A stretch of 64,000 nt of DNA, from the NCBI RefSeq assembly GCF_001294455.1, contig NZ_LIKT01000004.1, positions 124,001 through 188,000 on the forward strand, given 5' to 3'. This DNA is from Phaeobacter sp. 11ANDIMAR09 (GTDB taxonomy: Bacteria; Pseudomonadota; Alphaproteobacteria; Rhodobacterales; Rhodobacteraceae). Below are positions 18,873-26,108 of the stretch, piece after piece. How positions within the stretch are numbered: the stretch's first letter is position 1; each line of letters opens with the position of its first letter. The notes below the pieces were generated by a model. The model was not told where the DNA came from. It worked only from the letters and a program-made list of their open reading frames with translations, and searched no databases. A program made the position numbers and the translations under genes.

Positions 18873-18902
18873 TGTGATCACGGTTTTTTGGGGTGTGATC
18901 AC
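18873..18902. promoter_or_regulatory. Paired GTGATCAC element upstream of sucC
   Basis: Two copies of TGTGATCAC begin at 18873 and 18894, so the palindromic cores are exactly 21 bp apart (13-base spacer). The nearer copy is 111 bases from the sucC start. The same pair with the same spacing occurs before sdhC. It fits a dimeric regulator bound twice on one DNA face. The regulator is unknown to me. The divergent glycosyltransferase could share control. Confidence 0.6.
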
Positions 18903-18980
18903 ATACGCCGCCTAACAGGACTCTTGCCGTGGCGAATCAATTCGAGCAATATGGCTTTAATAAAAATTGAGGCAAAAGCC

Positions 18981-20015
18981 ATGAGCATGTATTATACGGA
19001 AGCGGGCTCCGCAACTTGGGGCACCGTCTGCACGGCGCGTGAAACGCCAGAGTTATTGGCAGCTTTTGCCGCGCATCACGCAGCAATTGGGGCCAGCAAG
19101 GTCTATCTCTATCTCGACGAACCATCGCCACGGGCCCTGGAGCTGTTGGCGGTTATCCCGGCGGTCGATGTTACCGTCTGTGATCAGGCCTATTGGGCCC
19201 GTGTCAACAATGGACGCCCGCGCAGCCAGGAAGGCCGTCAGATCGTCAATGCCCAGGATGCCCTGCGCCGCGCCGAAGTGGACTGGTTGCTGCATATTGA
19301 TGCGGATGAGTTCCTGTCGCCGCAGCGCGATCTCAGCCTGGAGCTTTCGCAGGTGCCCAGCGGCATTGAATACCTACACCTGGAAATGCGCGAGCGTGCC
19401 TTTGTTGGCAATAGGCCCCCAGAAACGATCTTTGATGGTGCCTTCCGTGTGCCCATTGGACAGGAGCAGCGGGTGCTGCGGCTTATCTATGGTCCGGGAT
19501 TCGGCTTCACCAATGGGGGTTTTGCCGGTCAGACCGCCGGGAAGAGCCTGGTCCGGGTCAAGGATTGCGATCTGCTGATGGGCATCCACCGTCCCCGGGT
19601 TCCTTCGGCGCAGGCGCGCGAACGCCCTATGGGCCTAGCGTGCCAATCTGCAGTCTTGCTGCATTTTGAAGGGCTGACTCCGGCCCATTGGATGGCCAAA
19701 ATCACCCGCTACAGCCAAACGGCCCGCTACAGCCAGGGCGATCTTTTGGGGCGGCATCAAAAACGCCAGGTGAATTACCTGATCCGCAACAACTGGAGCG
19801 CTGAGGCGCTGCGCAAGCTGCATGATCTGCTGAAGGTCATTGATGAGCCAACCGAAACACGGCTGCGCGGTCTGGGGGTGCTGGAAACATCGTCGGTCAA
19901 CCCCAGCTACGGGTTGCGGGTCTTTGGTCTGGGGGCTGAAGTCGATCTGTCGGTTGAGTGCTCCGACCGGGGCTGGGTCGACTGGGCACCGGGAATTCTG
20001 AGCTACGCCGCCTGA
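18981..20015 (+). CDS. Glycosyltransferase family 2-like protein
   Basis: 344 residues from the ATG at 18981, chosen because GAGG lies eight bases upstream; an ATG at 18951 is possible. The N terminus WGTVCTARETPELLAAFAAH begins a GT2-like (PF13704) domain common in marine alphaproteobacteria. DADEF near residue 107 is the metal-binding DxD site, and a His/Arg-rich C-terminal half follows. Such proteins probably add sugars to surface polysaccharides or other glycans, but acceptor and donor are unknown. It is an isolated gene facing mdh, with a shared terminator. Confidence 0.8.
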   Translation: MSMYYTEAGSATWGTVCTARETPELLAAFAAHHAAIGASKVYLYLDEPSPRALELLAVIPAVDVTVCDQAYWARVNNGRPRSQEGRQIVNAQDALRRAEVDWLLHIDADEFLSPQRDLSLELSQVPSGIEYLHLEMRERAFVGNRPPETIFDGAFRVPIGQEQRVLRLIYGPGFGFTNGGFAGQTAGKSLVRVKDCDLLMGIHRPRVPSAQARERPMGLACQSAVLLHFEGLTPAHWMAKITRYSQTARYSQGDLLGRHQKRQVNYLIRNNWSAEALRKLHDLLKVIDEPTETRLRGLGVLETSSVNPSYGLRVFGLGAEVDLSVECSDRGWVDWAPGILSYAA

Positions 20016-20120
20016 CTGGGGCGCCTGTCACGCAGGCTGATCCGCCCCCGCGCGCGCGAGAGCGCCGTGCCAAGGTTTCGCGCCAGGACAGCGATGAGGT
20101 TAATCCCCTGGATCAGACAC

Positions 20121-20153
20121 AAAAAAGCCGCCGGACTGTCCGGCGGCTTTTGT
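20121..20153. terminator. Bidirectional Rho-independent terminator
   Basis: A strong stem (GCCGCCGGA / TCCGGCGGC, loop CTG) is flanked by six A on one side and TTTTG on the other. It serves both the glycosyltransferase (plus strand) and mdh (minus strand). Confidence 0.9.
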
Positions 20154-20174
20154 TGTTTGAGTGGAGGGCGTGGC

Positions 20175-21137
20175 CTAGGCCAGCGAACCGTCGATGCCTT
20201 TGCAGGCGTCAACCAGACCCTGAACCGCCGCAACAGAGGTGTCGAACATTTCCTGCTCTTCTTTGTTGAGCTTGATGTTGACAACTTTTTCAACGCCGCC
20301 GGCGCCGATCACGGTGGGAACGCCGACATACATGTCTTTGACGCCAAGGTCGCCGTCACAATAGGCGGCACATGGCAATACGCGTTTCTGGTCTTTCAGA
20401 TAGGCTTCGGCCATTTCGATCGCCGAGGCGGCAGGTGCATAGAAGGCAGAGCCGGTTTTCAGCAGGCCAACGATTTCGGCGCCGCCATCACGGGTGCGCT
20501 GAACCATTGCGTCCAGTTTCTCCTGCGTGGTCCAACCCATGTCGATCAGATCGGGCAGGGGGATACCGGCAACGGTGGAATAACGCACGGATGGCACCAT
20601 GGTGTCGCCGTGGCCGCCCAGAACAAAGGCGGTGACGTCGCGCATCGAGACGTTGAATTCTTCGGCCAGGAAGTGGCGGAAACGGGCCGAGTCCAGCACG
20701 CCAGCCATGCCGCAAACCTTGTTGGTGGGCAGGCCAGAGAATTTCTGCAACGCCCAGACCATCGCGTCCAGCGGGTTGGTGATGCAGATGACAAAGGCGT
20801 TTGGCGCGTGGGCGGCAATGCCTTCACCAACGGATTTCATCACTTTCAGGTTGATGCCCAGCAGGTCATCACGGCTCATGCCGGGTTTGCGCGCCACACC
20901 TGCGGTGACGATGCAAACATCGGCGCCAGCAATGGCGGCATAATCGCTGGAGCCGGACATGGCTGCGTCGATTTTCTCAACAGGGCCAGATTGGGCGATG
21001 TCGAGTGCCTTGCCCTGGGGAAGGCCGTCAGCGATGTCAAACAGAACGACGTCGCCCAGTTCTTTGATTGCTGCGAGGTGAGCGAGCGTGCCGCCGATGT
21101 TGCCTGCGCCAATAAGCGCGATCTTGGGTCTGGCCAT
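20175..21137 (-). CDS. mdh: Malate dehydrogenase (NAD-dependent, LDH-like type)
   Basis: Interconverts malate and oxaloacetate in the TCA cycle. 320 residues, the size of the LDH-like [MDH III] bacterial class. The N-terminal Rossmann motif is [11 protein letters not shown]. Arg83, Arg89 and Arg153 bind the dicarboxylate, and the catalytic His176 is in GGHGDTMVP. It is upstream of sucC on the same strand but separated by the glycosyltransferase and a terminator, so it is expressed independently. Confidence 0.97.
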
Positions 21138-25184: not shown

Positions 25185-25218
25185 CGCCCATGGGGCTGAA
25201 CCAGGTTCTTTAAGCAGG

Positions 25219-25251
25219 CCAGGCAGACAGCTGCCTGGTCTGTGGTTTTTT
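25219..25251 (+). terminator. Rho-independent terminator after mch
   Basis: CCAGGCAG-ACAG-CTGCCTGG, a perfect 8-bp stem, followed by TCTGTGG and a T-run. It ends the mcl2-nnrU-DUF1737-mch unit. A single GTGATCAC core (25257-25264) follows immediately. Confidence 0.85.
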
Positions 25252-25326
25252 CGAAGGTGATCACAGCTCTGTGTTTGTCCTACATCAGGGGTGACGACAG
25301 GGCATCTTCTTGCCTAGAGTTTTTGG

Positions 25327-26070
25327 ATGAGGTTCAAAGCCCGACTCTTTGCTGCTGTTTTACTTGCCTTGCCCTTGCCTGGTTGGGCCTGTGATCTGGC
25401 GCTGGTGCTGGCGGTGGATGTTTCGGGTTCGGTAGATGCGACTGAATACCGTATCCAGATGGACGGGCTGGCAGCGGGTCTGCGTGACGGGGTGGTGTCT
25501 GAGGCCCTGGTAAATGCCCAGGCGCAGGTGACTCTGATCCAATGGTCCGGACGGGCGCGGCAAGAGATTTCCATCCCCTGGACGCCAACCCGAACCTTTG
25601 ATGAGGTCGAGGCACTGGCGCAAAGGGTCGAAGCGACACCGCGTCCCTGGCGCAATTACTCCACCGCTCTGGGAGAGGCGCTGCTGCTGGGGCTGGAGCA
25701 GATTGTCACGGGTCCCAATTGCAAACGCCGGGTCATTGATCTCTCTGGCGACGGGCCCTCAAATGAGGGCGTTGAGCCCGCCACGCTGAAGCCTCTGATG
25801 CGCCAGGCCGATGTTACCGTCAATGCCATCGCCATCGAGCAAAGCGAGCCAGAGCTGACAGCCTATTTCTATGAACATGTGATCCGGGGTGAGGGCGCCT
25901 TTGTTGAAACCGCGCACAGCTTTCGCGACTATCCCGAAAAGATCCGCCGGAAACTGGTCCGGGAAGTGGCGCAGAAAACCGCAGGCGCGCTGTCGCCTCC
26001 AGAGAACAAAGCGGCGGATTTGCAAAAATTTGCACAGGGGAGCGCTGATTCTGCAAAAAATTTCCAATAG
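25327..26070 (+). CDS. DUF1194 secreted von Willebrand factor A-like protein
   Basis: 247 residues. The signal peptide covers about residues 1-20 (AAVLLALPLPGWA then C, so a lipoprotein is possible but the lipobox is poor). The MIDAS motif DVSGSVD is near residue 30, followed by a vWA-like fold typical of DUF1194 (PF06707), with LSGDGPSNEG as the later metal loop. The function is unknown; vWA domains bind proteins through a metal. It is directly upstream of the sdh promoter on the same strand. Confidence 0.85.
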   Translation: MRFKARLFAAVLLALPLPGWACDLALVLAVDVSGSVDATEYRIQMDGLAAGLRDGVVSEALVNAQAQVTLIQWSGRARQEISIPWTPTRTFDEVEALAQRVEATPRPWRNYSTALGEALLLGLEQIVTGPNCKRRVIDLSGDGPSNEGVEPATLKPLMRQADVTVNAIAIEQSEPELTAYFYEHVIRGEGAFVETAHSFRDYPEKIRRKLVREVAQKTAGALSPPENKAADLQKFAQGSADSAKNFQ

Positions 26071-26078
26071 GGTGAATT

Positions 26079-26108
26079 TGTGATCACTTGACTGTAGCCT
26101 GTGATCAC
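26079..26108. promoter_or_regulatory. Paired GTGATCAC element upstream of sdhC
   Basis: Two copies of TGTGATCAC begin at 26079 and 26100, with the same 21-bp spacing as the pair before sucC. The nearer copy ends 115 bases from the sdhC start, almost the same distance as at sucC. A poly-T/poly-A tract follows at 26113-26130. The 8-bp core is a perfect palindrome. Confidence 0.6.

Follow-up and report, generated by a model that had tools for sequence, protein, structure and literature searches.

Paired palindromes before the suc and sdh genes

We analysed a 64,000-nucleotide stretch of the Phaeobacter sp. 11ANDIMAR09 genome (contig NZ_LIKT01000004.1, positions 124,001 to 188,000; hereafter the window, whose own numbering is used throughout). 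It carries two groups of tricarboxylic acid (TCA) cycle genes, each headed by a doubled 8-bp palindrome. One pair of GTGATCAC copies stands before sucC, downstream of which sucC-sucD-sucA-sucB-lpd follow in a row, and a second pair stands before sdhC, followed by sdhD and sdhA (Table 1). Both have the form GTGATCAC-N13-GTGATCAC with a period of 21 bp, the copies being at 18874-18881 and 18895-18902 for sucC and at 26080-26087 and 26101-26108 for sdhC. The distances to the start codons are nearly equal (113-141 bp upstream for sucC, 116-144 bp for sdhC), and every copy in the two pairs is preceded by a T on the forward strand. These places, the 13-base spacer, the 21-bp period and a distance of 110-145 bases had been proposed in an original prediction made from the letters of the window, and all of them are borne out.

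The window contains 10 copies of GTGATCAC, where 1.02 would be expected, and a count of 10 was reached in 0 of 100 shuffles; for spaced pairs (spacer 5-25), the numbers are 2 observed and 0.00 expected. When the whole genome (4.7 Mb, 101 contigs) was scanned with a spacer of 5-30, the sucC and sdhC pairs were the only ones found, and a control pattern read backward gave none. Numerous chance pairs across the genome, which the original prediction had named as a finding that would speak against it, are therefore not what the genome holds.

Six copies of the palindrome in the window are single. Four of these lie within listed open reading frames (ORFs), at 17121, 24204, 44583 and 61864, and one at 63965 lies in no listed ORF, near the end of the window, where frames that run off the end are unlisted. 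The sixth (25257-25264) is intergenic, 62 bp before the gene for a DUF1194/VWA-domain protein that precedes sdhC. A related locus that carries the ortholog of this gene, L229, has no GTGATCAC at the place corresponding to window position 25257.

Table 1. Features of the window that bear on the paired palindrome
Feature	Position	Strand	Basis
lpd, dihydrolipoyl dehydrogenase, past sucB on the same strand	9456..10850	-	NCBIfam TIGR01350
sucB, 2-oxoglutarate dehydrogenase E2	11891..13384	-	NCBIfam NF004309
sucA, 2-oxoglutarate dehydrogenase E1	13396..16359	-	NCBIfam NF006914
sucD, succinyl-CoA synthetase alpha subunit	16622..17506	-	NCBIfam NF004230, E 1.4e-138
sucC, succinyl-CoA synthetase beta subunit	17568..18761, start codon 18761	-	NCBIfam NF001913, E 3.5e-176
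Predicted AkgR-type operator pair, sucCDAB cluster	18874..18902	-	GTGATCAC-N13-GTGATCAC, kept before sucC in related loci
Predicted AkgR-type operator pair, sdh operon	26080..26108	+	GTGATCAC-N13-GTGATCAC, kept before sdhC in related loci
GTGACA, possible -35 element of the sdh promoter	26168..26173	+	Role inferred from recurrence in sdhC regions
sdhC, succinate dehydrogenase operon gene 1	26224..26607, start 26224	+	Frame, place beside sdhA and tblastn relatives upstream of sucC; named by place and by the original prediction
sdhD	26618..26989	+	ORF; named by position between sdhC and sdhA; G011 frame 97.6% identical beside sdhC and sdhA
sdhA, succinate dehydrogenase flavoprotein	27002..28813	+	NCBIfam TIGR01816, E 6.8e-279

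Conservation of the pair in related genomes

Related loci were collected with SucC as the query, and the best 80 of 592 named loci were compared. Thirty of them (L003-L032, SucC identity 81-94%) make up a near group, and the remaining 50 have identities of 65-74%. By their titles the near-group loci are nearly all Rhodobacteraceae or Rhodobacterales, the exceptions being a proteobacterium (L028) and Maritalea (L026); for the titles Planktomarina and Amylibacter the family or order is our assumption. One of the 50 distant loci, L078, is titled Jannaschia.

In the sucC upstream regions of the near group and the window (n=31), the copies recur at a period of 21 in 26 regions and of 20 in two; in two more, one copy has changed to GCGATCAC (one mismatch, period 21), and a single region (L016) has no site. 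The sdhC regions present in the fetched stretches of 20 of the 30 loci, together with that of the window (n=21), comprise 17 with period 21, two with period 20, one with a weak partner carrying two mismatches, and one without a site. Exact pairs with either period thus precede 28 of the 31 sucC genes and 19 of the 21 sdhC genes of near relatives. Absence of the pair from close relatives had been put forward as grounds for giving up the original prediction; the conservation observed at both promoters instead supports its proposal that one regulator coordinates the two TCA cycle operons through paired palindromes. In all 50 loci with SucC below 75% identity, GTGATCAC is absent from the 400 bp before sucC.

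Among whole genomes, pairs with a spacer of 11-15 were found in 31 of 36 genomes of the family and in 1 of 24 others. Across 149 genera of the family (the genome under study included), 133 have a pair with a spacer of 1-31, and a control with the pattern read backward gave 0/149. Of the extra pairs, one lies within a reading frame (L226) and one belongs to a second sdhC promoter in G011 (L229). For 36 of these 149 genomes, 75 pair places were listed, with periods of 21 (64 places), 20 (4), 18 (2), 24 (1), 27 (2) and 31 (2), so that periods of 18, 24, 27 and 31 together account for 7 of the 75. Since 64 places have period 21 and 4 have period 20, the period, judged from these counts, is two helical turns with 20 bp tolerated. 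The exact 21-bp spacing originally claimed holds for the pairs of the window, but among relatives it is near, and not strictly, 21. We conclude that the doubled GTGATCAC is a real and conserved predicted operator.

Anatomy of the element

Column counts were made on exact period-21 elements only (26 suc and 17 sdh). A T stands immediately left of the first copy in 26/26 suc and 14/17 sdh elements, and A predominates at each of the three positions that follow the second copy on its right (25, 24 and 23 of 26 suc elements; 13, 15 and 13 of 17 sdh elements). Within the spacer, the base after the first copy is A or G (suc 26/26, sdh 15/17), the base before the second copy is T or C (suc 25/26, sdh 17/17), and the middle tends towards T followed by A. 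Because the flanks and the spacer ends mirror one another in these counts, the 29-bp element and its flanks together approach dyad symmetry. This form would fit two dimers set symmetrically on one face of the DNA, a binding step that we infer from the letters.

Downstream of the pair, GTGAC[AT] follows the last GTGATCAC at 57-60 bp in 15 of the 21 sdhC regions, and at no more than 110 bp in 19 of them. At sdh this motif is perhaps the -35 element of the promoter.

A candidate regulator gene

We take the Rhodobacter sphaeroides protein RSP_0981 to be the one named AkgR. According to PMC4344238, RSP_0981 is a GntR protein of R. sphaeroides whose predicted targets are sucCD, sdh and 2-oxoglutarate dehydrogenase. 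PMC6365646 reports that AkgR sites include GTGATCAC. With both statements in print, the regulator cannot be called unrecognised, as it had been in the original prediction. AkgR also appears in the reference lists of PMC11323563, PMC4419725, PMC7471390 and PMC8557541.

A search of the genome with the GntR model gave 25 matches at E <=0.001, and a stretch of about 3 kb was inspected for each. Among the 25, TGTGATCACA occurs only in the stretch L098, which lies outside the window; 10 bases separate the end of the core of this site from the L098 start codon. One bare GTGATCAC without the flanks is found at L106, a weak match below the family cut-off. The L098 protein has 221 residues and matches the Pfam GntR (53.0 bits) and FCD (62.3 bits) models, both above cut-off; its gene is bordered by a gene for a YgjP-like peptidase on one side and an acetyltransferase gene on the other. 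The nearest solved structure by sequence is McbR of E. coli (4p9f; E 1.4e-21).

The site beside the regulator gene recurs in relatives. We examined 42 L098 orthologs (30 and 12 from two sets) in a zone from -120 to +45 bp of the alignment start, and 33 of them have an exact GTGATCAC near the start, while two have a one-mismatch copy only. In the genomes behind the named loci, matches to L098 with 68-89% identity were found in 12/12 near-group genomes searched, including Paracoccus, Phaeobacter and Ruegeria by title; in 10 genomes outside the near group, no match to L098 exceeded 36% identity (E <=1e-20). The gene and the suc and sdh pairs are on different contigs in the genome under study. Of 34 genomes with both listed, 18 have gene and pair on the same contig, in 15 of these 18 within 22 kb, and this linkage is in keeping with RSP_0981 and sdh having neighbouring RSP numbers. 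L098 is likely the AkgR of this genome, and we are confident, though short of certain, that each pair is a predicted operator for this GntR/FCD regulator, the putative ortholog of R. sphaeroides RSP_0981.

Co-occurrence of regulator and pair

Orthologs of L098 were called at E <=1e-50 in the 149 genomes, with at most 20 candidates scored per genome, and were found in 133. Gene and pair occur together in 130 genera, the gene alone in 3, the pair alone in 3 and neither in 13 (Fisher p 1.8e-13, kinship ignored). When the 132 genomes that are at least 90% complete were kept and 17 dropped, the corresponding counts were 118/1/2/11 (Fisher p 2.7e-13). The one gene-only genome in this more complete set, G075, carries a one-mismatch pair at each of two places on a single contig, separated by 7.5 kb, and the first of these places is before sucC. 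For a control GntR gene, L083, the counts over the 149 genera were 111/4/22/12 (p 3e-6, kinship ignored).

Several observations weigh against the assignment of the pairs to AkgR. The exact site by akgR is missing in 9 of the 42 orthologs. In the 132 more complete genomes, too, the control gene L083 is correlated with the pair (103/1/17/11, p 6.5e-8), so part of the co-occurrence signal is shared ancestry. Three genomes, G030, G131 and G149, have a pair and no L098 ortholog at E 1e-50; G131 is 77% complete, while the two pair-only genomes of the more complete set, G030 and G149, consist of 210 and 320 contigs. Because a pair stands before sucC in G149 and one before sdhC in G131, these two are real pairs without a found regulator. 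G015 and G137, with neither ortholog nor exact pair, have one one-mismatch pair each, not near suc or sdh. A consensus scan found no sigma-70-like promoter beside either pair in the window, so activation by the bound protein is a proposal. Lastly, the proposed orthology of L098 and RSP_0981 is argued from shared targets, motif, GntR class and linkage, what is observed being the co-occurrence with the pair, the site at the gene's own start and the linkage in 18/34 genomes.

Alternative explanations

Another GntR/FCD protein, such as the PdhR-like L083 or the 39% paralog L103, could bind the pair in place of AkgR. The palindrome is common to relatives of AkgR: according to PMC6365646, GTGATCAC is the proposed binding site of PS417_07240 of Pseudomonas simiae, a GntR-like protein with 32% identity to AkgR, and in G049 about 2.5 kb separate a pair from a 32% relative. 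The correlation of L083 with the pair and the three genomes with pairs and without an L098 ortholog point the same way. Nevertheless, the full TGTGATCACA stands before the gene only at L098, L098 co-occurs with the pair more tightly than L083 does, and one GntR protein is predicted for these operons in PMC4344238. L083, a conserved gene, was dropped as the regulator on its weaker co-occurrence and on the one-mismatch TGTGATCAGA that is all its stretch contains. We consider it improbable that a protein of this family other than AkgR is the one that binds.

The two copies could also act in the transcript, as a stem-loop of the leader RNA with an 8-bp stem and a 13-base loop. The cores are self-complementary, so two copies could pair, and both pairs lie no more than 145 bp from the start codon. 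Yet in L020, L027 and G075, where one copy has changed to GCGATCAC, the pairing is broken and the 21-bp period is kept, and most orthologs of akgR have a single copy beside the gene. The comparison used pairs found by exact match, which hides changes. An Rfam search gave no family at threshold in 18700-26300. A stem-loop was rejected on the changed copies and the single akgR site, and we give it very little credence.

Least probable of all is a site of the CRP/FNR type, TGTGA-N6-TCACA. TGTGA and TCACA are the half sites of CRP, and both can be read in the element. The reading was rejected on spacing: within a copy the half sites abut (spacer 0), and across the pair the first TGTGA and the last TCAC are separated by a gap of 21 bp, where 6 is required. 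In addition, PMC4344238 states that no proteins analogous to CRP are predicted in R. sphaeroides.

Further sites of the motif

The longer motif YGTGATCACR occurs 13 times in the genome, against 1 for a backward control. The suc and sdh pairs account for three of these and the akgR site for one; another lies over the start of an SCO1/SenC gene, and 8 are elsewhere, 7 of them in ORFs of at least 178 residues and one (L176) only in short ORFs. The SCO1/SenC site is a perfect TGTGATCACA over the start codon (L167 1501-1510, equivalent to C1:202266-202275). The SCO1/SenC gene is divergent from a sensor kinase gene and has a response regulator gene after it; we take this arrangement to be that of senC, regB and regA. 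Ten of 12 genomes of the genus retain the site, against 0 of 18 others examined; as the whole senC stretch is alike within the genus, this conservation does not prove function.

In G077, a third exact GTGATCAC pair with period 21 stands 124 bp before fumC (fumarase; L225 1494-1522), a distance close to those at suc and sdh. Of 33 fumC regions, this is the one with a pair and another has a single copy, while the genome under study has neither; fumC was rejected as a general member of the regulon on these counts. A period of 31, equal to about three helical turns, is seen in two pairs, one at L223 1543-1581 (G171), between two genes other than suc and sdh, and one at L224 1513-1551 (G077). The G049 pair, in another family, has a spacer of 14 (L228 4309-4338) and suggests that AkgR relatives may use the same core. 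The gene after it looks like that of a TonB receptor.

Proposed mechanism and significance

With AkgR as the regulator, each 8-bp palindrome of a pair would be occupied by one dimer, the two dimers sitting on the same DNA face at a distance of two helical turns. As the 29-bp element and its flanks are near-symmetric, the dimers probably touch across the AT-rich spacer. Bound AkgR would then activate the downstream promoter, at sdh perhaps with GTGACA, about 59 bp on, as the -35 element, and the outcome would be a joint rise of the 2-oxoglutarate-to-fumarate part of the TCA cycle. The trigger may be a metabolite in the FCD domain; the name AkgR hints at 2-oxoglutarate or a related acid. The single site by the akgR start would serve autoregulation, probably repression.

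A more elaborate version can be offered only tentatively, and we think it rather less likely to be right than wrong. Here the pair would be a composite operator with dyad symmetry at a double level. Each palindromic core would take up a dimer, the two cores would be held two helical turns from each other, and the mirrored ATTT/AAAT flanks and spacer ends would place a tetramer on one face at strong TCA cycle promoters, with a fixed distance to the -35 element at sdh. Single sites (at akgR and, in the genus, at the senC start beside the regB-like kinase gene) would be plain blocks, and the module would have arisen at, or moved to, fumC in one lineage.

The finding is real and likely mostly explained already, the likely regulator and its targets being in print. 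The pair most likely marks an AkgR circuit through which, in this family, 2-oxoglutarate dehydrogenase, succinyl-CoA synthetase and succinate dehydrogenase are linked to one another. Its near-invariant period of 20-21 bp over many genera would make it a clean test case for the use of two dimers by a GntR/FCD activator, and the pair could serve as a simple regulon marker in genomes of the family.

Comparison with known systems

The original prediction had proposed comparison with LacI, GntR and CRP-family motifs, and agreement was found with one of the three, the GntR-family AkgR core GTGATCAC as given in PMC6365646; neither the CRP half-site spacing nor the motif of the LacI-family protein CceR fits. 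According to PMC4344238, CceR (RSP_1663) has the motif [AGT]GTT-N6-8-AAC[ACT] and is predicted to regulate central carbon genes of R. sphaeroides, sdh among them. The 200 bp before sdhC contain one match to this printed motif, GGTTTTTTTAAAAACA at 26117-26132, directly after the pair. The motif differs from GTGATCAC, the pairs themselves lack it, and the 200 bp before sucC have 0 matches. CceR was rejected as the owner of the pair on this mismatch.

McbR of E. coli is a family relative of L098 only. PS417_07240 is closer in its site, since there too, according to PMC6365646, the palindrome GTGATCAC is near the start of the regulator gene; it differs in belonging to another pathway (a deoxyribonate cluster) and in the one copy described. 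The closest likeness is to AkgR itself. One difference is that here the akgR candidate and the suc and sdh genes are on separate contigs. The linkage of akgR and pair in part of the relatives is what the neighbouring numbers of RSP_0981 and sdh suggest. L098 belongs to the GntR family, and GTGATCAC is common to both sets of sites. The pairs also precede the sucCDAB cluster and sdh, which matches the sucCD, sdh and 2-oxoglutarate dehydrogenase targets predicted for RSP_0981 in PMC4344238.

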